Positions 5 to 42,736 of a stretch of 50,470 bases of DNA are shown here, in pieces. The notes below the pieces were generated by a model. That model saw only the letters and a program-made list of their open reading frames with translations, was not told the origin of the DNA and did no database searches. Position numbers and translations under genes: made by a program. Numbering within the stretch: position 1 is the stretch's first letter; each line of letters begins with the position of its first letter. Origin of the DNA: a virus; the IMG/VR virus record IMGVR_UViG_3300025083_000060, positions 1 through 50,470 of that record, one strand, 5' to 3'.

Positions 5-472
5 ATGATAGAAGTATTAGCTTTAGCAGGTGCAGTTACTAAAATAGCTGGTGCAGTTAGTTCTGCAGTTAAAGCTGGTGGTGATGTAGCAGACTTACTG
101 CCTCACTTTGGTAAGTTAGCTAAGTTAGAAGCTGACATAGGTTTAGCTGAACAAGGTAGACACAAAGGTCCTCTAGGTAGACTTACATCATCTGAAGAAG
201 AAGGCTTTGCAATTGCACAAGCCAAGATGAAACACAAAGAAGCACAGAACGAACTACGTGAAGTGTGTAGATTGTATGGACCGCCGGGCATGTGGGATCT
301 TGTTGTAAAAGAACAAGCAGCAGCTAGGGTCAGACAAAAAGAAGCACTAGAGGCCCAAGCAAAAGCAAGAGATAAATTGTTTTGGGGTATATCATTAACA
401 GTAGGTGTGCTATTATTCTTAGGTGGTACAGGTGCAATGATCTGGGGTCTTAACGAAGTAGTAAATGGTTAG
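5..472 (+). CDS. Putative internal virion or virion membrane protein
   Basis: A 155-residue protein with an Ala/Gly-rich hydrophobic N-terminus (about residues 5-30), a charged Lys/Glu/Gln-rich middle (about 65-125) that should be helical, and one clear membrane segment near the C-terminus (about 127-150). It is the first gene of a + strand block that continues with two large ejection-like proteins, so a role in the virion core or in DNA entry is inferred from context, analogous to the small internal core protein of T7-like phages. I recognise no domain. Only four bases precede the ATG, so the ribosome site cannot be judged. Confidence 0.75.
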   Translation: MIEVLALAGAVTKIAGAVSSAVKAGGDVADLLPHFGKLAKLEADIGLAEQGRHKGPLGRLTSSEEEGFAIAQAKMKHKEAQNELREVCRLYGPPGMWDLVVKEQAAARVRQKEALEAQAKARDKLFWGISLTVGVLLFLGGTGAMIWGLNEVVNG

Positions 473-506: not shown

Positions 507-3221
507 ATGAGAAATAGTTTGTATAATCCTTTTATGCCATCCTTAAGTGTTAAGGATCTAATGGTTTATAATATGAGTTCTGGAGGTGTTGACCCAAGGT
601 TTCAACCCAAGCTACCTTTTGCTGAATTTAAAGAAGAAGAAGAAGATGTACAAAAGTCATCTCAAGATGAAGGTACTTCTGCCCCTACAGGCTTTGCTAA
701 GGGTGGTATGCCTAAAGCACCGGGTGTAGCTCCTACTCCTGTACAAAACCCCGGTGATTTCACTGAAAAAGATCCGGGGAAATGGGGGCATTCTCAGAAC
801 TGGATATCAGGAGGTAGAGAACGTGGAGAAATTAAGAACAAAAAAACAGGAGCTAAAAAGTTTACAGCGTACTTTAAAAAGGGTGACAAGAAAAGTATAG
901 CTAAAGCTGCTAAAGAGTTAATGGGTCCTTTAAATAAAGCTTACACTGAATACACAAAGAAAAAAGCAGCCCACACAAAAAAAGTTAATGCATTTAAAAC
1001 TTATCAAAAAGCACAAAAAGCTTATGATAAAAAAGCATCAGCCTATCAACAAGCTAATGTAAAAGGTCAGCAGGAGCTTGTACAATCTGCTTTAACTGAT
1101 CCCGGATCTTTAGCTGAAAAAGCAAAAGTAGATACTATTAGCGCTAAGACTAAAGGCACTACCATTGCTGCAGGTGTAGGAGATGCTGCAGGTAAAACCC
1201 CTCAGATGGGAGTTACTACAGCGGGCACTGCTGCTCAAGCAGGAGGTGTTGGTAAAGTAAAAGCAGAAACAGTAAGTGCAGACAAAGTAGCAGGTGATAC
1301 CCAAAAACTAATTAAGGATACAGGTGTAACAGGCGAAGTATCTGATGAATCTCAGATAGATGCTGCACAAGGTGAACTATCTAAAGATGCTATGGCTGAT
1401 GCAGCCACTATGGACCCTGAATATGTTCAAGAGGTTACTGCAGGAGAGCGTCAAGTTTCTTCAGAAGAGTTGGCTTCTGCTCAAGGGTTAGATGAAAAAG
1501 CAGTAAAGAGTCAGATAGCTCAAGCTAATGTTCCTGATAATATTAAAGCTGCTCAGACTTCTGTACAACCAGAAGAGATTCCACAACCAGCACAAATACA
1601 AGAGTCTGAAATGGCTGCTGCTGAAGCTATGACTATGGACGGTCTTAGTGACGATGCTACAGCAGTTGCAGCTAAACTTGAATCTTTTAACGTAGACGAT
1701 GGTACACTAGCAGAGTTTAAAGAAGGTAAGATTGAAGCGCAAGATACTGTACAAGGTCAGCTTGCAGGTCTTATGAAGCAGTTTGATGATGGCACACCAG
1801 CATGGGCTGCAGGTGCTATGCGGGCTGCTAACTCTGCAATGGCGGCTCGTGGTCTAGGCTCTTCGTCTATGGCAGGTGCTGCTGTTCTTCAAGCAGCTAT
1901 GGAATCAGCTTTGCCTATTGCATCTAAAGATGCTGATGCTTTCCGTAGCATGAAGATGGACAACCTTAATAGACAACAGCAAATTTCATTAGCTAATGCG
2001 GCTGCACAGCAAGGCGTAGAGCTTGCAAACTTTAATGCTGAACAACAAACCGCATTACAAAACTCTCAGAATGCTTTCTCACTGCAGTCACAGAACTTGT
2101 CTAACATGCAACAGACTGTTCTAGCTAACGCACAAATCAAAGCATCTTTGCAAGGACAGAACTTATCTAACCAACAACAATCTAACATGGCTGAAGCTGC
2201 TCGTTATGCAGAGGTTAATAATCTTAACCTTAATAACCGTCAGCAAGCTGTCTTACAAGATAATGCTAATGAGATGCAAGTCAACTTAGCTAACATGAAC
2301 TCTAAGCAACAAGCTTACTTAGCTAATGCGCAGCTAGAGGCTGCACTACAAGGTAAGAAGATTGACAACAAACAGCAGACAGCTATGGCTAATGCTGCAC
2401 GATTTGCTGATGCTGCTAATCTTACATTCACTGCGGCAGAGCAAGCTAAGATCCATAACTCAGAGCTTATGAAAACAGTAGGACTTGCAGAGCTTAGCTC
2501 AGAACAAGCGGCTACATTACAGAATGCTGCAGCCGTGGCTTCTATGGATATGGCTAACTTAAGTAATGAGCAGCAAGCTAAAGTTCAGAATGCTAAAGCT
2601 TTCCTTGATATGGATATGGCTAACTTAAACAATGAACAACAGGCTGTTATGTTTAAGCGGCAAGCTATGCAGCAATCTCTGTTGTCAGATCAGGCTGCTG
2701 AAAATGCTGAGCGTCAGTTTAATGCGTCATCTAAAAATCAAACTAAACAGTTTATGGCAACTACTAAGGCACAGATTAATCAGTTTAATGTGGCGCAAAA
2801 TAATGCTATGAAGCAGTTTAACGCAGGAGAGAAGAACGCTGCTGCAAAGTTTAATGCAGAAATAAAGAATCAGAGAGCACAATTCAACGCCTCTAATAGA
2901 TTAGTTGTAGCACAAGCTAATGCTCAGTGGAGACAGAATGTAGCAACTCTTAATAGTGCTGCAAAGAATGAAGCTAATAGACAGCACGTCATGACAGCTA
3001 ATGCTATGACTCAATCGACTATGGATCAGATATGGCAACGAGAGCGAGACGTTATGTCTATGGCATGGAAGTCTCATGAAAGTAATAAAGATAGAGCTAA
3101 CGCAATTATCATGGCTCAGATGAGTGCTGACGCTCAAGCAGCCGCCCTTAAAGCGCAAGAACGTGCCGCTAATAGTAGATCAATAGGTAACTTTTTTGGT
3201 GGACTTATCTTCAGCGGTTAA
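507..3221 (+). CDS. Large repeat-containing internal virion protein (22- and 11-residue helical repeats)
   Basis: A 904-residue protein. The N-terminal 70 residues carry an AKGGM motif also seen in other virion genes of this phage. Residues about 100-180 are Lys-rich and residues 180-440 Ala/Thr/Val-rich. From residue 486 it contains eleven tandem 22-residue repeats (pattern NLsNxQQaxLaNAxxxxxxxL), then six or more 11-residue repeats (pattern xQFNAxxKNxx). No other domain is evident. An 11/22 period is typical of long helical hendecad coiled coils or amphipathic helices, so a long helical rod or trans-envelope channel ejected with the genome is inferred. It lies between two other entry-type genes. 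The ribosome site before the ATG is weak. A start at Met10 is possible. Confidence 0.8.
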   Translation: MRNSLYNPFMPSLSVKDLMVYNMSSGGVDPRFQPKLPFAEFKEEEEDVQKSSQDEGTSAPTGFAKGGMPKAPGVAPTPVQNPGDFTEKDPGKWGHSQNWISGGRERGEIKNKKTGAKKFTAYFKKGDKKSIAKAAKELMGPLNKAYTEYTKKKAAHTKKVNAFKTYQKAQKAYDKKASAYQQANVKGQQELVQSALTDPGSLAEKAKVDTISAKTKGTTIAAGVGDAAGKTPQMGVTTAGTAAQAGGVGKVKAETVSADKVAGDTQKLIKDTGVTGEVSDESQIDAAQGELSKDAMADAATMDPEYVQEVTAGERQVSSEELASAQGLDEKAVKSQIAQANVPDNIKAAQTSVQPEEIPQPAQIQESEMAAAEAMTMDGLSDDATAVAAKLESFNVDDGTLAEFKEGKIEAQDTVQGQLAGLMKQFDDGTPAWAAGAMRAANSAMAARGLGSSSMAGAAVLQAAMESALPIASKDADAFRSMKMDNLNRQQQISLANAAAQQGVELANFNAEQQTALQNSQNAFSLQSQNLSNMQQTVLANAQIKASLQGQNLSNQQQSNMAEAARYAEVNNLNLNNRQQAVLQDNANEMQVNLANMNSKQQAYLANAQLEAALQGKKIDNKQQTAMANAARFADAANLTFTAAEQAKIHNSELMKTVGLAELSSEQAATLQNAAAVASMDMANLSNEQQAKVQNAKAFLDMDMANLNNEQQAVMFKRQAMQQSLLSDQAAENAERQFNASSKNQTKQFMATTKAQINQFNVAQNNAMKQFNAGEKNAAAKFNAEIKNQRAQFNASNRLVVAQANAQWRQNVATLNSAAKNEANRQHVMTANAMTQSTMDQIWQRERDVMSMAWKSHESNKDRANAIIMAQMSADAQAAALKAQERAANSRSIGNFFGGLIFSG
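1962..2687 (+). repeat. Eleven tandem 66-bp units encoding 22-residue repeats
   Basis: Residues 486-727 of the 904-aa protein divide exactly into eleven 22-residue units with no insertions. The conserved positions are N-L/F-x-N at 1-4, Q-Q at 6-7 and A-N-A near 11-13. The DNA has diverged between units, so selection is on the protein period rather than on recent DNA duplication. Confidence 0.9.
2712..2909 (+). repeat. Six tandem 33-bp units encoding 11-residue repeats
   Basis: Residues 736-801 of the 904-aa protein form six 11-residue units, each with (Q/K)F at positions 2-3 and usually N-A after it. They begin 8 residues after the 22-residue array, and the period is exactly half of it. Weaker 11-residue units may continue to about residue 834. 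Confidence 0.88.
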
Positions 3222-3242: not shown

Positions 3243-4190
3243 ATGTCAAAAGAAACTAGAAAATCTTTAATGAGCCTTCGTCAATCTATGGCTTTACTGG
3301 GTGCAGCAGGAGGTGCGCAAGCTGGTATAGGTGCGTCTATTGCGGCTCAGATAGAACAAGATAAACAGGGTGGCTTTATGTCTGGTACAGAAAGATCTAG
3401 AAAAGCTAGAGCAGATATAGAAAGTATAGATACTAAACCTATAGAAACCTCAGAAGGCTTAACTAGAAGCAAGGATGATGAGCCTCTTAAATTAAAGGAT
3501 TCAATAAAAGATGCAATCAGTGGTTGGTTTTCTGTGCAGAATGATCCTGAGATACAAGCAGAGATAGATAAAGCTGCTCCTAAAAAGGAAGACACAACAT
3601 CCTACAAAGGCCCTTCTCAAAACAAAGCCACTAATCCTGACCCCGTAGTGGCTAAGGAGAAGCCTCTTGTAAAAGCTCCTGCTCCTCAGAAACCTAAAGG
3701 AGACATGCCTGAGCCTCTTGTTCTGAGTGCAGAAGATGCGGAGCTACTGGAGACTGTTGTATGGGCTGAAGCTGAAGGCGAAGGTATTGAAGGACGTAAT
3801 GCAGTACGTGGTGTTATCCTTAATCGCATTGCATCTGGTGAATTTCCTGATACATTAGAGGGTGTGTTGAAGCAGAAAAATCAGTTTGAACCCGTAGGTA
3901 AGGCTAAAGGAAATATAAGAAACGTCACACTTGCAGGTAAGACTATAGATCCTAAACTTTTAGATCAACGTAAGTTTGAATTAGATAGCTATCTTAGAGA
4001 GGGTGTGGATGCTTCTCAAGGAAGTACCTTCTTTCTTAATAAAGAAGTAAGTGAAAAACGTGGTACAGATTTTTATGGAGCTAATCCTATTACCATAGGA
4101 CAGCATACATTCTATTCTAGCTACAAGAAAAATGCACCTGTGGTTGTGCCTTACTACTCCCATAATGTTGTTATAGAAGGTTTACAATAA
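3243..4190 (+). CDS. Virion-associated cell wall hydrolase, SleB-like (Hydrolase_2)
   Basis: 315 residues. The N-terminal half is low-complexity, basic and probably a linker. The C-terminal half (about 165-310) matches the SleB/CwlJ-type hydrolase fold: a VVWAEAEGEGIEGRNAV segment with the expected catalytic Glu, then VILNRI and a QFEPV-type motif. The family cleaves peptidoglycan. Sitting among entry proteins and far from the lysis genes at 30 kb, it most likely acts locally on the wall during DNA injection rather than in lysis. AAAGG lies upstream of the ATG. Its stop overlaps the next start (TAATG). Confidence 0.82.
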   Translation: MSKETRKSLMSLRQSMALLGAAGGAQAGIGASIAAQIEQDKQGGFMSGTERSRKARADIESIDTKPIETSEGLTRSKDDEPLKLKDSIKDAISGWFSVQNDPEIQAEIDKAAPKKEDTTSYKGPSQNKATNPDPVVAKEKPLVKAPAPQKPKGDMPEPLVLSAEDAELLETVVWAEAEGEGIEGRNAVRGVILNRIASGEFPDTLEGVLKQKNQFEPVGKAKGNIRNVTLAGKTIDPKLLDQRKFELDSYLREGVDASQGSTFFLNKEVSEKRGTDFYGANPITIGQHTFYSSYKKNAPVVVPYYSHNVVIEGLQ

Positions 4191-4774
4191 TGTTTGAAGC
4201 ACCCATCCCCGGACAGTCGCTGACGGATGAACCCGGAAACTTTGACTGGGAGCAACCCCCTACAATTACAGATCCAGATCCCGCTATTGTATACCACTTA
4301 GATAGATTATACACAGAGGAAGTGGCAGAGAGTGCTCTGTTTATGTTGGAGTTTGGATTTTCTGTAGAGTTGTTGGTAGATAGTATTCTTACGGGTGCTG
4401 TTGGTCAAGGTATGCACAGTATTGATATGAGCTTGACTATTGCACCAATCATTCACGAAGAGATTACTTGGATGGCAAAGACTGCAGGAATAGATTTTGT
4501 GGAGTTCTTTAGTGGCGACGATGAAAAGAAGCAAAAAGAAGAAGACAAGCTGGAAGCTCTTATTAAGAAAAGTTTGGAAGACCAACTGTCAGAGGAAGAA
4601 GACGAGATAGATGAAAGCTTTGTTGAAGAAACAGCGGAAGCTTTCGGTACTCCTCAAAGAGAGAAGCTGACTGAGATGCGAGAAGAGCAGCCGCAACAAC
4701 CCCAAGAACCAGAAGTAAAACCTGATGCAGCGCCTAAAGCTAGTGGTCAAGGACTTATGAGTAGAGGAGCTTAA
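4190..4774 (+). CDS. Conserved phage protein of unknown function, probable virion component
   Basis: 194 residues. A mixed central part (about 40-105) contains a long hydrophobic helix around a FGFSVELLVDSILTG-type stretch. It is followed by a strongly acidic Glu/Asp/Lys helix (about 108-150) and a Pro/Gln-rich tail ending in Arg-Gly-Ala. No domain is recognised. Its start overlaps the hydrolase stop by one base, so the two are translationally coupled, and it sits in the entry-protein block, which suggests a structural or chaperone role. Confidence 0.72.
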   Translation: MFEAPIPGQSLTDEPGNFDWEQPPTITDPDPAIVYHLDRLYTEEVAESALFMLEFGFSVELLVDSILTGAVGQGMHSIDMSLTIAPIIHEEITWMAKTAGIDFVEFFSGDDEKKQKEEDKLEALIKKSLEDQLSEEEDEIDESFVEETAEAFGTPQREKLTEMREEQPQQPQEPEVKPDAAPKASGQGLMSRGA

Positions 4775-4777
4775 GCT

Positions 4778-6151
4778 ATGAGTTGGATGAATTTTATGGC
4801 GGGGGTTGCCGAAAAAGGCACTGAAATAATGGACGAAAGACGTAAGTACATTAGAGACAAGCGTCAAGCAAATCAAGATTGGCTAGATACTTATGGCAGA
4901 AAGATCGTAGCAGAAAGACAAGAAAGTATTAATAATGTTTTAAATATGTCTAACTACATTTTAGGTAGAGGCGTAGAGAAAAATTTTGTAAACTACTTGT
5001 ATGAAACTGGTGGCGTTCCCGCTATCAGTAGTACGTATAATGCTATTAAAGATGACACCTCAATAACAGGACAAGATATCCAGTCCTTCATAGGTGATAT
5101 TGGTACATACACTTCTCCAGAAACACCTCTGGGTGACAGAATTAAAGATAGCTTTAATAACTTTTCTAGAGCAGAGCGCCCTGAAGATCAAGAAGAAAAG
5201 AACTTTATGGCAAGTCTTGGTGGTGGCTTTGGACTTTTATTTGGGGATGAAACAGAAGCAGTTTCTAGAGATCTAGATGAAATGATGATTGGCGAGTATA
5301 CAGGTACTGAAGTTAAGGCTATGGCAGGGCTAACCTCAACACCAAAAGCACCGGGTCTTGTAGAGTTTAACTATAGTGCCTTACCTGCTTCTCAAGCAAG
5401 TGCTACAGAGAAGAAAGCAGTGGCGTCCGAAATAGAAAGTAACTTAAAGACTATAATAGAAGATAAGATTAAGGATCTTAGAATAGCTTCAGATACTGCG
5501 TCTCAACTGGAATTGCAGGATCTACTTGATATTGAAGATTATGCAGGTATCGCAAAAAAATATCCAGATCTGTTACAACCTGTGCTAAATGCTGCAAAAA
5601 GATTTGAAAAAAAGTATCCGGGATCTATGACAGATCCTACTTTTATAGATCAATCTTTTGTAGACTACTACATAACAGCGTCTGCACCTTTAACTTTAGA
5701 AGACAAGCATAAAAACATAAAAGATGCGGGGTATAACATACCACCCCTAGATACTCTACGAGAGTTCGACAGTGATGAGGCCGCTGCAGAAGAGTTGGGA
5801 CCTGATACATATTATCTTGTAGGGGATGAAATAAGAAGGACAGAGCCTGACGATAACGGTGACGATAACGGTGAAGATGACGGTGAAGACGGCGGTGAAG
5901 ACGGCGGTGACAATGAAGGAGACGATACAGGGGTAGACTTGACACAACCTACAGACCCCCGTCCTACAATGTCACAGCTTATCCTTAAGTTTAAAGAAGA
6001 GAACGACATAGCTTCTAGGCGGCGCTTAACTCCTGCGCAAAAGCGCCCATTACAAAAACAAATTGATGATTGGAATGCCACATATGGAGCTACCCATAAC
6101 CCCGTAACAGGCGAGCTTAAAAGAAAAACAAGGCAGAGAAGGCCCCGCTAA
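4778..6151 (+). CDS. Unknown virion-block protein with acidic Asp/Gly repeat linker
   Basis: 457 residues beginning MSWMNFMAGVAEKG, preceded by GAGGAG about 9 bases upstream. The body is helical and soluble. Residues about 358-385 form an Asp/Glu/Gly/Asn tract encoded by a 12-bp tandem repeat, followed by a short basic C-terminal domain ending RQRRPR. No catalytic motif was found. The next gene starts immediately after its stop codon. A structural or ejection-related role is inferred from position only. Confidence 0.72.
   Translation: MSWMNFMAGVAEKGTEIMDERRKYIRDKRQANQDWLDTYGRKIVAERQESINNVLNMSNYILGRGVEKNFVNYLYETGGVPAISSTYNAIKDDTSITGQDIQSFIGDIGTYTSPETPLGDRIKDSFNNFSRAERPEDQEEKNFMASLGGGFGLLFGDETEAVSRDLDEMMIGEYTGTEVKAMAGLTSTPKAPGLVEFNYSALPASQASATEKKAVASEIESNLKTIIEDKIKDLRIASDTASQLELQDLLDIEDYAGIAKKYPDLLQPVLNAAKRFEKKYPGSMTDPTFIDQSFVDYYITASAPLTLEDKHKNIKDAGYNIPPLDTLREFDSDEAAAEELGPDTYYLVGDEIRRTEPDDNGDDNGEDDGEDGGEDGGDNEGDDTGVDLTQPTDPRPTMSQLILKFKEENDIASRRRLTPAQKRPLQKQIDDWNATYGATHNPVTGELKRKTRQRRPR
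5849..5932 (+). repeat. 12-bp tandem repeat encoding acidic Asp/Glu-Asn/Gly-Gly linker
   Basis: Seven consecutive 12-base units follow one another in frame. The first two are identical (GACGATAACGGT), the fourth and fifth are identical (GAAGACGGCGGT), and the last two have decayed. It is a likely slippage-prone linker. The whole tract keeps the reading frame. Confidence 0.85.
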
Positions 6152-9100
6152 ATGGCAATAACATATGAACAAATGATGGCCGCTGCCCGAAAAGATGAGG
6201 ACCGTCAAACAGAAGATGTGTTTGGTCCTGCAGATGCTTCTTCTGTAGGAGATCTTACTGAAGATCAAAACTTTAACATTGTTGAAAAGTATATGAACCA
6301 ACGCTTTGGTATGAGTGAGATGACTCATGACAGACAGAACATTGTTGATTCCTATGTCAATCATATGCGTAAGTTTAACTTCGGTCAGTCTGTTACCACA
6401 CTAGGTGAGATGACTTACCTGCACAACCCAGCTAAAGAAGAGGGTGAGATAAACTCTAGACGTGCTGCTGCTGCAGATGCTTATCAGTTATTTGATAACA
6501 TGAAGGGTGCCTTCTCTGATGAAACTACCTTCGGTCAAAAGGTAGATGCTGTAGGTGATTACGCTAGAGCTTTGATTATAGACCCTGCTAACCTTGCATC
6601 TTTGGGTGTAGGTAAACTAGCTGCACAAGCTGGTATGAAAGGTGTGACAGCCGCAGCCAAGAAAGCTGCTATGTCTTTCGCTAAGAAGCAGCTTAGAGAG
6701 AGAGGCATAAAGAAGCCTACTGAAAAACTATTACGGGAAGAAGCTTTCAAGCAAGAGCGTAAGATCCTAGCTCGTATGATGCAGTCTGAGGCTGGCAAGG
6801 AAGCAGCACAGAAGTCTGCCAAGATGGAGATAGGTGCAACAGCTTTATCAGATGCAGCCTTTGGGTTGAGTGTTGACTGGGCTTACCAAGAATCCTTTGA
6901 GAAGGCAGGACTTCAAACAGACTATGATGCGGTGCAAGGTAGTGTTGCATTTGCTGGGGGATTGTTTGGCGGTGGGATTGCATACGGTTTAAATCGTATA
7001 TCTAAAGGTGGTCCTGAATCCATAGGTGCTTCAGCTAAATTCTTTGCAGACGCTGCAGAAGCTAAAGCTAAAGCTGCTGACTTAGCAGGAGAAGAAGTAC
7101 GTAGACAGACTAAAGAAGCTACAGAAAATCTAAAGGCAGACCCTGAAGCTGTAGAATCCTTGTCAAGAGACTTGGCTGATACAAAAGCTAGATTAGGTGA
7201 CTGGTTTAATAAAGTCCAACGTGGGGATATGGCAAGGGCTGTACCACTAGAGCCGGGTTCACCCGGTACACCTCGTAGTGATATCATTTTAGATTTGTTT
7301 CTAAGGGGATCTCCTCAAGATGGCTTTGAGGGTGTGTCAACTATCCTAGCTAAGCGAGGTATCAAACAGCCTATAGGCCGTGAAGGTTTTGCTAATCACT
7401 TTGACTGGTTGTCTAGCACTGTGATGGAAATGCCTGACAGTGTTATAGATGACATACAAGGTATCTTTGATGAAACTCTAGGCAAATTCATACCAGACTT
7501 TAAAGGCAAGACCCTTGAGCAAGGCTTAGATGTTCTGTCTTCTGAGGTTAGTCAGAGTGCTAGATACTTAAATATTTTATCTAAGACTAGTCGGGCTATA
7601 GGTTATGAGCCTGAGACAGACGAACCCTTGCAAAGACTTATTGGCGCAGCTAAGGCAGAGCTAGATTCAAAGCAAGCTGAGATGTCTGCTAAAGAAATGA
7701 TTGCTGAAGGTATGACACCCTTTGCTGCACGTAAAGCGGCTGTCTCTAAAGGCGCTGCCAAGTTTCAAAACAACTTCATTCGTACTTTGGTTACGCATCC
7801 GGGCACAACTATGCTCAACTTGATTGGTTGGACACAGGCATCTGCATTACAAAGTATAACTGATACTACTCGTGGTGTACTATACGGTCCTGCATCCTTT
7901 GCATATTCTGTGATGGGCAGGAAAGCTGACGCTGTACAAGCTCGTAACAAAGGCATACAGTTACTCAAGCTGCAGAAGCAGAAGATATCTAACATCCTAG
8001 ATCCTAACGCCACGTTCAACGAAGCAATGGACTTCTTTGCTCACAACCCTAAAGCGCAGAAAGAAATGTTTCGCTTTATGGCGGGTGAAATTGAGATGGA
8101 AGACACGCTCAAACAGTTGAACATTAAAATAGATGACATGGATAAGCCCGGCGTCCCTGAGAAAGTAATGGACTTCTTCCAAACAGTCTATGGTGTTAAG
8201 GCGCAAGACTTCTTAACTAAGACGCAAGAGTTTATGTACAACATAGATAAACAGGTACGTCTTAAATACAACATGTCTTACTCTGAGTTCATTGCAGATG
8301 CAGATCTATACAAGAAGATGGATGGAGAAGAGTATGCAGAAGTAACAGCTACTGCTGTGTCTGATACCTTACGCACTGTATTTTCTAAATCATATAAACC
8401 TAAGTCAGAAGACATTGATAAAAGTGCATTGGGCTATGTAGCTGCTGCTATCGAAGATGCACGTAGAGTTCCTGTTGTTGGTGCACTTGTACCTTTCGGT
8501 AAGTTCTTTAACAACACTGTCGTACACATGGCAGATTACACAGGCATAAGCTTTATGCATAAATATTTAGGCAAGTCTGAGAGAGATCCTTATGAGCTTG
8601 CTATCAAAGGTGCAGTAGGACTAGGTTTAATAGGGGCTTGGGGAGCTTACGACTATAAGAATATGGAAGAAGGTCTTGCTTGGAATGAAGATCGTATGAG
8701 TGACGGCACTATACGAGATCGTAAGTATGACTTCCCTTTCAGCTTCTATAAGGCTATGGGTCGTATGGCAGCGCATCAATACAGAGATGGTTATGTACCG
8801 AAAGAACTAGTCGCAGATATTACTGCCACTTTTGGTATTGAATCAATCACAAGACAATTAGGTGAAGTCAGTAAAGCACCCTATCAACTTCTACTAGATC
8901 TCTCTGCAGGTGATATAGATGCAGTTAAGTCTAATGCAAGTTCTGCTGTAGGTGGTGCAGTATCTATGTACATATCAGGATATACACGTCCCTTAGATCC
9001 TATCAATCAAGTAGCCGCTATCTCTCGTGGAGAAGATTATATAGCAGTAGATCGTAATGATGGTAGCAAGTGGCTAAACAATTCAGTGCGCTACGTAGAT

Positions 9101-9697
9101 CAAATGTTTGATGCTATGGATCTGTCCGTACAAGAAATGGTAGGGCAGAAAGCACCCCAAGAAAAGAATAGAGCTTTATCTGATACTCCGGGTAGAGCAC
9201 CTATAGGAAGACTGTTTGGTTTTAGGGAGAAAGATGCACCTTCCACTATCAATAGAATGTTTAATGAGATAGGTTTACCTGAGTGGAAGTCTAACATCAA
9301 AGCTGACATTGCTGTAGCTGATAATAGAATGAATGAAATAATTGTAAACTATTTAGATTACTATTCTGAAAATGTCGTAAACTCTGCTAAGTGGCGGGAT
9401 GGTACAGATGAAGAGCGTAGATATTTAGTTAGTCGTGTTCTGTCTGTATCCAAAAAGCAAGCAATGAAAACTCTACAGCTTCACGGTAGGACAGGGGATC
9501 GTCGCATGGAAATCATGTACGACATCAGTAAGCGAGGCGGCTCTATCAGTAAGAGAGAACTAGCTGATGGTATGGAAGCTTTGGGTATGAAAGGAGAAGT
9601 AGAAGATCTTTCTAACGAGGCACTAGAACTCTTATACTTCTATCTCAAGGATGAGAACAACAGAAAGAAACTACTTCAAACACAAAGTAACCTATAA
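6152..9697 (+). CDS. Large internal virion / DNA ejection protein
   Basis: 1181 residues, by far the largest protein here and close in size to the T7 gp16 class of ejection proteins. Gly/Ala-rich hydrophobic stretches occur at about 265-285 (AFAGGLFGGGIAYG) and about 820-840 (GAVGLGLIGAWGAY), with amphipathic helices between. There are no recognisable enzyme motifs, and the transglycosylase seen in T7 gp16 is not evident; the separate SleB-like protein may do that job. It begins directly after the preceding stop (TAA-ATG) and ends the + strand block at a terminator. Function is inferred from size, composition and position. Confidence 0.78.
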   Translation: MAITYEQMMAAARKDEDRQTEDVFGPADASSVGDLTEDQNFNIVEKYMNQRFGMSEMTHDRQNIVDSYVNHMRKFNFGQSVTTLGEMTYLHNPAKEEGEINSRRAAAADAYQLFDNMKGAFSDETTFGQKVDAVGDYARALIIDPANLASLGVGKLAAQAGMKGVTAAAKKAAMSFAKKQLRERGIKKPTEKLLREEAFKQERKILARMMQSEAGKEAAQKSAKMEIGATALSDAAFGLSVDWAYQESFEKAGLQTDYDAVQGSVAFAGGLFGGGIAYGLNRISKGGPESIGASAKFFADAAEAKAKAADLAGEEVRRQTKEATENLKADPEAVESLSRDLADTKARLGDWFNKVQRGDMARAVPLEPGSPGTPRSDIILDLFLRGSPQDGFEGVSTILAKRGIKQPIGREGFANHFDWLSSTVMEMPDSVIDDIQGIFDETLGKFIPDFKGKTLEQGLDVLSSEVSQSARYLNILSKTSRAIGYEPETDEPLQRLIGAAKAELDSKQAEMSAKEMIAEGMTPFAARKAAVSKGAAKFQNNFIRTLVTHPGTTMLNLIGWTQASALQSITDTTRGVLYGPASFAYSVMGRKADAVQARNKGIQLLKLQKQKISNILDPNATFNEAMDFFAHNPKAQKEMFRFMAGEIEMEDTLKQLNIKIDDMDKPGVPEKVMDFFQTVYGVKAQDFLTKTQEFMYNIDKQVRLKYNMSYSEFIADADLYKKMDGEEYAEVTATAVSDTLRTVFSKSYKPKSEDIDKSALGYVAAAIEDARRVPVVGALVPFGKFFNNTVVHMADYTGISFMHKYLGKSERDPYELAIKGAVGLGLIGAWGAYDYKNMEEGLAWNEDRMSDGTIRDRKYDFPFSFYKAMGRMAAHQYRDGYVPKELVADITATFGIESITRQLGEVSKAPYQLLLDLSAGDIDAVKSNASSAVGGAVSMYISGYTRPLDPINQVAAISRGEDYIAVDRNDGSKWLNNSVRYVDQMFDAMDLSVQEMVGQKAPQEKNRALSDTPGRAPIGRLFGFREKDAPSTINRMFNEIGLPEWKSNIKADIAVADNRMNEIIVNYLDYYSENVVNSAKWRDGTDEERRYLVSRVLSVSKKQAMKTLQLHGRTGDRRMEIMYDISKRGGSISKRELADGMEALGMKGEVEDLSNEALELLYFYLKDENNRKKLLQTQSNL

Positions 9698-40915: not shown

Positions 40916-41103
40916 TAATAAAAAAACTAGTAAACGATAAACCTCTATGGGATTCTTTTTGTGAAACTGTTGATAATAAAATCAGTCAGGTACATAAGAA
41001 CATGGAACAATTAAAATCACCAGAAGAGTTGTTTCGCTGTCAAGGTGAGATAGCTGCTCTACGTAAACTCAAATACTTGAGGGATGAAATAAATGGCTCT
41101 TGA
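40912..41103 (+). CDS. Small helical protein
   Basis: 63 residues, an amphipathic helix pair (NKISQVHKNMEQLKSPEELF, GEIAALRKLKYLRDEI). Coupled by overlaps at both ends (ATGA with the 522-aa gene, 11 bases with the next). Small proteins of this kind next to portals are common in marine phages; role unknown. Confidence 0.7.
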   Translation: MIIKKLVNDKPLWDSFCETVDNKISQVHKNMEQLKSPEELFRCQGEIAALRKLKYLRDEINGS

Positions 41104-42736
41104 AGATCAGATGAACGAAATGATAACAGAACCTTCTGTTGATCCTGTTAGTGGAAACGAAATACCTCTAGGCTCTACTGCTGAAGAAGTACGAGATGAC
41201 ATAGACGCTAAACTTTCTGAGGGTGAGTATGTTGTACCTGCAGATGTATTACGTTTCTACGGTGTAAAGTTTTTTGAGGATTTGCGTGACAAGGCAAAGT
41301 CTGAGTATGCTGAAATGGCAGAAGAAGGACGCATAGGTGGAGAGCCTGTCTCTGAAGAAGGTCCTGAAGATGTAGAGATTTCTGACGAGGATATGATGGA
41401 AGGCATCTCTGATGAGGACATGGCTGACATAAAAGCGGTATTGGAAGGTACAGCTTCTTTGCCTATGGATGCCAGTGATGAAGATATGGCTGAAGTACAA
41501 AGCGTTATGGAAGGTGAAGCTACAACGACTATGGCACAAGGTGGTATTACTTCTATGCCTAAAGCCTCTCAGATGAATGTACGAGAAGATGTAGACGGTA
41601 TGATAGACCGCATGTATGAGATGGTTAAGAACAACCCAGAGGTAAAAAAGAAACTGGATGCTAAAGGTATTAAGATGGCAGAAGGTGGTTATGTAAAGGG
41701 TTACGCAGATGGCGGCTTTGAAGATGGCTCTGAACCTGACTTTTTATCAGGCTCTAATACTGGTCCTGTTCCTAGCTTTCTTTCAGGTATGGGTGCATTA
41801 GGTTTTTCCCAGACTTTAGGTGCTACACAAGGTTACTCAGGTCCTAGAGCTACAGAGCTTGTGGACTACTATAATCCTTCTACAGGTGCTACTATGCAGA
41901 TTTCTGTATATTCCGACACTAAGCAGCCTGTAACTCCTGTACCTCAAGGGTTTCAATTAGGTAAACCTCAAGCTCCTTCTCGGAGGGATTCTGATGACGA
42001 TGATGACGATGATAAACCACCAGCACCTAGATGGTATGATGACATAGAGTTTGGTAATTCTGAGTCTGTTTCTGAGTGGGCTAAGACACAGAAGGGTCCA
42101 CCTTCTTTACTGAGAGCTTCTGCTATTGGTGCTGCTGGTACAGTTAGTACTGTAGCAAACTTACGTGCTGCTGCTATACTAGAGAAAGCTAAGAATGGCG
42201 GTAAAGATAACAGCACTAGTACTTCTTTGAATGAACAAGCTAATGCTATGCAAGAAACGTATAGCCCTTTTGAGAAGTTTCTCTCTAAGATGTTTGGTGA
42301 TTCAGGTGAAGTACAAGCTAAGTTTGCATCTTCGCAGGTAGGAATTAACTTGGCAGATCCTACTAAGAATACTATTGAGCCTACTCCACCAGAGAAAGAT
42401 AATAACGGCGGTGGCGGCTCAGATAATAACGGCGGCGGCTCAAATGATGATCCAATCACACCAACTCCCCCTTCAACACCCAGCAAGGATAGTTCAGGTA
42501 GTGGTTCAACAAATCCCGGAGACAGAGGATTTACGCCCGGAAGTCAAACACCTCCTTCTGCCTCTTCAGATGTAGGTAATGATGGTATGACAGATGCAGA
42601 AAGAGAATCTGGTGCTGGATCATATAGTAGAGACACAGAAGATGATAATAAGGGTTTATCTGGTAGTGCATCAAATGTTGCTGATGCAAAGGACTTAGGC
42701 TATAACAAAGGCGGCTTGATGAAGAAACGAAAGTAA
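41093..42736 (+). CDS. Conserved marine-phage virion-block protein
   Basis: 547 residues. The N-terminus (DPVSGNEIPLGSTAEEVRDD, LSEGEYVVPADVLRFYGVKF) is a conserved module found in many marine phage genomes near portal and scaffold. The middle is acidic with EGGYVKGYADGGF and AQGGI motifs, about 300-310 is an Asp run (DDDDDDD), about 430-520 is Gly/Ser/Pro/Asn-rich, and the protein ends YNKGGLMKKRK. Probably a structural or assembly protein. No enzyme motif seen. Confidence 0.75.
   Translation: MALEDQMNEMITEPSVDPVSGNEIPLGSTAEEVRDDIDAKLSEGEYVVPADVLRFYGVKFFEDLRDKAKSEYAEMAEEGRIGGEPVSEEGPEDVEISDEDMMEGISDEDMADIKAVLEGTASLPMDASDEDMAEVQSVMEGEATTTMAQGGITSMPKASQMNVREDVDGMIDRMYEMVKNNPEVKKKLDAKGIKMAEGGYVKGYADGGFEDGSEPDFLSGSNTGPVPSFLSGMGALGFSQTLGATQGYSGPRATELVDYYNPSTGATMQISVYSDTKQPVTPVPQGFQLGKPQAPSRRDSDDDDDDDKPPAPRWYDDIEFGNSESVSEWAKTQKGPPSLLRASAIGAAGTVSTVANLRAAAILEKAKNGGKDNSTSTSLNEQANAMQETYSPFEKFLSKMFGDSGEVQAKFASSQVGINLADPTKNTIEPTPPEKDNNGGGGSDNNGGGSNDDPITPTPPSTPSKDSSGSGSTNPGDRGFTPGSQTPPSASSDVGNDGMTDAERESGAGSYSRDTEDDNKGLSGSASNVADAKDLGYNKGGLMKKRK

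Follow-up and report, generated by a model that had tools for sequence, protein, structure and literature searches.

We report a length quantum in the rod of a 904-residue phage protein: among its relatives, rod length varies almost only in whole repeats, and most of the longer length values fall into two series that step by exactly 110 residues. The protein is encoded in the virus record IMGVR_UViG_3300025083_000060, of which positions 1 to 50,470 (50,470 bases, hereafter the window) were analysed; the features discussed are collected in Table 1. The length quantum of the rod is a new finding, and a search of the open-licence literature yielded no account of the repeat or of a 110-residue step in it.

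Table 1 Features of the rod gene and its neighbourhood in the window
Feature	Position (nt)	Strand	Remarks
155-aa ORF upstream of the rod gene	5..472	+	PHROG 32327; hydrophobic segment near the C-terminus (by eye)
Rod gene, 904 aa	507..3221	+	Contains the whole array; homologue of HMO-2011 gp25 (phage1322_25); from ORF listing and tblastn
N-terminal part, residues 1-424	507..1778	+	Contains Pro and Gly; length varies between relatives
Conserved non-repetitive region, residues 425-478	1779..1940	+	Holds anchor A (P470); from alignments
Continuous 11-residue register, residues 479-830	1941..2996	+	Asn column 23/32
Eleven 22-residue units, residues 486-727	1962..2687	+	Gly at 550 and 616 marks the start of two units, at a distance of 66 residues
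Eight residues between the arrays, 728-735	2688..2711	+	Register kept
Six 11-residue units, residues 736-801	2712..2909	+	Phe every 11 residues; long helix in both AlphaFold2 runs
C-terminal helices, then Gly-containing hydrophobic end	2910..3218	+	Conserved W808 (anchor C), W843 and R863
Cell wall hydrolase, 315 aa	3243..4190	+	Pfam Hydrolase_2
194-aa partner gene	4190..4774	+	Relative in 110 loci
457-aa partner gene	4778..6151	+	Variable in sequence and length
1181-aa partner gene	6152..9697	+	Last gene of the late block

Rod length among relatives

Rod length was measured between three anchors, P470 (anchor A) and W808 (anchor C), which lie outside the arrays, and N733 (anchor B), which lies between them. 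The sample comprised 201 sequences (200 loci and the window), of which 195 were complete, the six that were incomplete at an anchor being dropped; it contained 147 distinct A-to-C segments. The A-B distance took 14 values between 65 and 593 residues and equalled 21 modulo 22, corresponding to whole 22-residue units, in 137 of the 147 segments and 10 modulo 22, corresponding to a half unit, in nine, with one segment off the register. The B-C distance took five values, all of them 9 modulo 11 (147/147). To guard against a slip of anchor B by one repeat, the spacing was also taken directly from anchor A to anchor C, and was 8 modulo 11 in 146 of the 147 segments. Comparing repeat number between relatives, as the first-pass annotation had suggested, shows that over the 147 distinct segments the rod changes length almost only in whole repeats, and more so in the 22-residue units than in the helix marked by phenylalanine. 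The sole out-of-register rod, that of locus L073, has an A-B distance of 591 residues, two short of 593, and could be a sequencing error or a real exception.

From 109 residues upward, nine of the 12 A-B values fall into two series stepping by exactly 110 residues, or five 22-residue units (153, 263, 373, 483 and 593; 109, 219, 329 and 439), with 142, 274 and 591 outside them. When nine lengths were drawn at random from the 23 whole-unit lengths, a grouping so tight was obtained in 13 of 200,000 draws, in a test that was chosen after the pattern had been seen and with length values that are linked by descent. A tree of the flanking regions requires at least 33 changes of length class, against an average of 73.6 for shuffled labels; this tree is based on about 180 residues and its deep support is poor, so that it gives a rough count of changes only. 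By hand tally, 25 of the 33 length changes in one parsimonious set are multiples of 110.

Rod length also differs between phages of the same host. Among isolates of host strain FZCC0040, CRP-3, CRP-235 and CRP-212 have an A-B distance of 87 residues and CRP-207 one of 142, and Pelagibacter phages have distances of 65 and 219. Because rods of different length occur on one host strain, a role of the rod as a ruler of the host envelope was ruled out. The lengths of the partner genes show no trend with rod length by eye.

The two arrays form one hendecad series

The eleven 22-residue and six 11-residue units without indels that had been described in the first-pass annotation were recovered with the same count and coordinates. 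The repeat had also been called exact, which is true of its spacing and not of its units, which are degenerate rather than identical copies: without any gap, the 22-residue units match their own consensus at 6-14 of 22 positions and the 11-residue units at 4-10 of 11, the latter with phenylalanine at positions 738, 749, 760, 771, 782 and 793. Identity at lag 22 in the last 450 residues lies 11.0 SD above that of shuffled sequences, and the periodicity z scores are 9.5 at lag 22, 5.6 at lag 11 and 2.0 at lag 7. Tandem Repeats Finder reported no array in 1962-2909, indicating that the units are well diverged at the DNA level.

The 22-residue unit is a pair of unlike hendecads, and about 30% of the rod is asparagine plus glutamine. 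The eight residues between the arrays do not interrupt the phase: a single 11-residue register marked by asparagine runs through them, from residue 479 to about residue 830. In this stretch (residues 479-830) asparagine occupies one column in 23 of 32 hendecad rows, and the largest column in 5,000 shuffles held 13. Both arrays belong to one series of hendecads, which are paired in the first array and unpaired in the second; the series extends slightly beyond the bounds first annotated, and the eight-residue gap is a mere choice of where the units begin.

Elsewhere in the window, a 66-bp tandem repeat (1.9 copies, 41410-41534) is located in a 547-aa ORF (41093-42736), the protein of which has a weak lag-22 signal (z 3.1).

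A block of 110 residues

In the longest rods, identity within the rod peaks at lag 110, reaching 0.44 in the 593-residue class, where lags 22-88 and 132-198 give 0.25-0.35; in the class of the window (263 residues), lag 110 is unremarkable (0.29). In series I rods of at least 373 residues, glycine starts 68% and 47% of the units of two kinds and at most 8% of those of the other three, an unevenness over the five unit kinds that was matched by 0 of 1,000 shuffles. The boundaries marked by glycine alternate at distances of 44 and 66 residues. Two pairs of closely related proteins (L058/L079 and L160/L067) are each set apart by a single clean insertion of 110 residues, and in a third close pair the aligner split the insertion as 66 + 44 residues, where a single insertion also fits.

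Helical character and structure prediction

No proline was found in 42,040 rod residues, for which the proline rate of the relatives' N-terminal parts (5.66%) would give about 2,379, and the charged residues of the window's rod recur with a period of 3.67 residues per turn. Both results agree with the hendecad helical character predicted earlier. In the 22-residue unit, large hydrophobic residues lie on two faces, which show no simple barrel geometry, and one position is serine, asparagine, aspartate or threonine in about nine of ten units, resembling a helix start.

The rod had further been expected to form a single helix of about 35 nm, which AlphaFold2 did not bear out: the predicted helix is unbroken only in the 11-residue units and the C-terminal part, and the 22-residue units are broken in both runs. 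The first run, made with the segment of the window and 24 sequences (mean pLDDT 55.9), placed a turn in nearly every 22-residue unit and a single long helix between about residues 709 and 814. The second run, made with the 153-residue class and 61 sequences (pLDDT 62.8), gave long helices with three breaks, at segment residues 82-86, 126-130 and 187-193, where, in a count from the end, units 5, 3 and 0 begin. These breaks coincide with the two kinds of boundary that are marked by glycine in longer rods, although only unit 5 is glycine-initial in the protein that was modelled. Both models are weak (pTM 0.34 and 0.22) and they disagree on the 22-residue units; because of this low model confidence, the predicted breaks lend weak support to a module of two helical segments.

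Sequence searches against the PDB gave only insignificant matches (E 0.26 or more), and a fold search against the PDB gave no match (best E 0.39). A fold search of a viral library gave four matches at E <= 0.001; judging by length and identity, two of these proteins are probably the CRP-9 and CHOED relatives.

The phage, the distribution of relatives and the gene neighbourhood

The coat protein of the window shares 81% identity with that of Roseobacter phage CRP-9 and 72.5% with that of Puniceispirillum phage HMO-2011, and the portal and adaptor proteins match Pfam SU10_portal and SU10_adaptor, which identifies the window as an HMO-2011-type short-tailed phage. In the available text of PMC9038755, this group is described as short-tailed and is counted among the viral groups of the sea that are most abundant and most widespread.

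The 904-aa protein has no family match in Pfam or PHROG. A tblastn search found its relatives in 27 phage records, a scan of viral contigs found them encoded by at least 594 stretches (594 of the 600 examined), and a scan of a genome collection found six loci, all in metagenome-assembled genomes. Two phage contigs (L208-L211) recur in metagenome-assembled genomes both under the label Flavobacteriales and under the label Neomarinimicrobiota; since contigs of the same name occur under two organisms, binning is unreliable for these phages and we infer no host from it.

The N-terminal part of the relatives measures 184-1042 residues up to the anchor proline. Ahead of the same rod, it carries LysM, PASTA, RTX, dockerin or DUF4214 domains, each in one or two of 67 relatives, with the wall-binding LysM and PASTA domains in one relative each and RTX in two. 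Such domains would suit a protein in contact with the cell wall or the exterior, and the RTX repeats would also fit an outer fibre. At the other end, 113 of 144 complete C-termini are rich in glycine, but the same holds for 123 of 361 other ORFs, and the feature was therefore given little weight. An S74 chaperone domain ends four of 32 relatives (L033, L036, L038 and L041), where it follows a glycine-rich hydrophobic stretch, and is absent from the window's own protein.

In HMO-2011, CRP-9, CHOED, phiM6 and most of the loci listed, the rod gene is followed by a small gene or a hydrolase gene, a gene of about 175 aa, one of 300-600 aa and a large gene that closes the late block. The slot 3' of the rod gene holds an ORF of hydrolase-like size in many relatives and one of 60-100 aa in many others; because of this variation in size, the hydrolase in this slot seems exchangeable. 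In the window, the 457-aa partner gene contains a 12-bp tandem repeat (5848-5910) that encodes an acidic run of glycine, aspartate and glutamate. The protein had previously been assigned to an ejection block. Its position ahead of three late genes stands, while the ejection role is one that we infer, with the S74 domain of a few relatives as its only tie in sequence to a known ejection protein.

Proposed function and alternative explanations

We favour, with a little better than even confidence, the product of ORF 507-3221 as an ejected pilot protein of an HMO-2011-type short-tailed phage. In the available text of PMC9509320, gp20-24 of phage SU10, which are encoded at a comparable position, are virion proteins that are lost on genome release, and the S74 domain of four of the 32 relatives matches PHROG 4287, to which SU10 gp21 and gp22 belong. 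Profile comparison with SU10 gp18-gp24 and with the Salmonella phage 7-11 group detected nothing outside this domain. Matches to PHROG 4287 and 6121 were considered as whole-protein homology and dropped, given that rod segments without the C-terminus match neither. In the open-licence literature, including the available text of PMC9038755, PMC6918029 and PMC6256558, we found no virion proteomics for this group, and the same literature yielded no description of how HMO-2011-type phages pass their DNA through the envelope. Taken as a whole, an ejection protein with a modular helical rod is the best explanation, and we give it an even chance of being correct.

Under this explanation, the 110-residue block would be a structural module of two helical segments, and gain or loss of whole modules would keep the geometry of the rod ends. 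The protein would be packaged and, along with the 194-, 457- and 1181-aa products, would exit ahead of the DNA; side by side, several copies would form a helical conduit across the envelope, whose asparagine and glutamine side chains may face the DNA as in the tube of phiX174 H. By analogy with that tube, the rod could be an amide-lined homo-oligomeric tube, a suggestion that we regard as possible but doubtful. Somewhat more doubtful is the complete model, in which abundant marine podoviruses would build a DNA-delivery conduit as an amide-lined tube from a helical rod whose module is fixed at 110 residues (44 + 66 segments), and this conduit would evolve in length by whole modules, about one to five of them, independently of the host. 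Natural variants of the rod that differ by exact modules provide a ready length series in which roles in measuring, spanning or lining could be tested.

The main rival of the ejected pilot protein is a tail needle or tail-tip fibre, that is, a trimeric helical rod that plugs the nozzle and bears variable terminal domains, as P22 gp26 or SU10 gp18. We consider it unlikely, while recognising that several features suit it. The SU10 needle gene, as far as the available description of that phage goes, sits between the nozzle and ejection genes, a position comparable to that of ORF 507-3221; a variable rod length suits a needle; and the RTX domains in two of 67 N-terminal parts would suit a needle or fibre. 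S74 chaperone domains are more usual on, and typical of, trimeric fibres, so that their occurrence in the four relatives also speaks for a needle. However, no similarity to SU10 gp18 was found, the lag-7 signal is almost nil beside those at lags 11 and 22, and the rod, rich in asparagine and glutamine, has few of the large hydrophobic residues that make up a trimeric core.

It is improbable that the unit steps reflect only a mode of mutation, by slippage or recombination between repeats, without structural meaning. Repeats ease the gain and loss of units, and lag-110 identity is highest in the longest rods, but in 20 long rods the DNA at a lag of 330 nt is 42-54% identical, with longest exact runs of 8-20 nt, and the inserted blocks of L058/L079 and L160/L067 reach at best 0.37 and 0.55 identity to the other blocks of their own proteins and are thus no fresh duplicates. 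Given this low block identity and these short exact runs, recent tandem duplication does not explain the 110-residue steps, for which an exchange of older blocks under constraint does better. The lack of proline and the register kept between non-repetitive anchors likewise argue against mutation alone.

Least probable is a scaffold resembling a tape measure, in which a helix in the portal-tail lumen would be bound by other proteins through a phenylalanine every 11 residues and enter the cell with the DNA: tape measure proteins do have aromatic 11-residue units (available text of PMC3271669 and PMC5099701), and six phenylalanine or tryptophan residues spaced 11 apart occur in 81 of 117 relatives (0 of 5,850 shuffles, 0 of 303 other ORFs), but the published pattern 1, with seven such residues, occurs in 0 of the 117, length changes more in the 22-residue units than in the phenylalanine helix, and the phage group is short-tailed (available text of PMC9038755), so that there is no long tail to measure.

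Comparison with known systems

The ejected pilot protein proposed here resembles several known rod-forming or ejected proteins in part, and would connect three subjects that have been studied separately: tape measure proteins with their aromatic 11-residue units, the phiX174 tube of amide-lined hendecads, and the ejection proteins of podoviruses. With gp21 and gp22 of the kuravirus SU10 (PHROG 4287) it shares a late-gene position, related portal and adaptor proteins and a glycine-rich C-terminal end, as well as an S74 domain in part of both groups; in contrast, its body has no detectable homology to these two proteins, which lack the 11- and 22-residue periodicity. The layout of S74 after a glycine-rich stretch in four relatives is like that of the DNA ejection proteins of the Salmonella phage 7-11 group. 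As with the needles P22 gp26 and SU10 gp18, a rod-shaped helical late protein is encoded near the ejection genes, but it shows no heptad signal and no similarity to SU10 gp18. The repeated helix-turn rod suggested by the first AlphaFold2 run for the 22-residue units resembles the helix-turn-helix supercoil in the stem of the phi29 head fibre gp8.5, as described in the available text of PMC6542822; unlike for gp8.5, the second run gives long helices, and the PDB fold search returned no match.

The 904-aa protein belongs to neither the tape measure proteins with aromatic 11-residue units nor the phiX174 H family. Tape measure proteins of long-tailed phages can carry aromatic residues every 11 positions (available text of PMC3271669), and in phage TP901-1 whole repeats could often be removed, whereas one removal of part of a repeat abolished visible plaques (available text of PMC5099701). 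The phenylalanine every 11 residues, the variable repeat number and the helical character are shared with proteins of the TP901-1 type, as far as these sources describe them, but there are six aromatic units rather than seven, the phage is short-tailed, and the main length variation lies in the 22-residue units rich in asparagine and glutamine and proceeds by 110 residues.

The H protein of phiX174 is described in the available text of PMC7354561 as a decameric helical tube, partly of hendecads, with a lumen lined by asparagine, glutamine and arginine. Among the PDB sequences searched, no homology to H was found, and H belongs to a microvirus whereas the present phage is tailed. The rod of H, as far as that description goes, consists of three hendecads, a transition and 11 heptads, in contrast to about 32 hendecads in modules here. 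Hendecad helices rich in glutamine and asparagine are common to both, with one asparagine column in the present rod, and just as the H rod has been proposed, in the available description, to line the path of the DNA across the envelope, we propose that the modular rod of HMO-2011-type phages may do the same.
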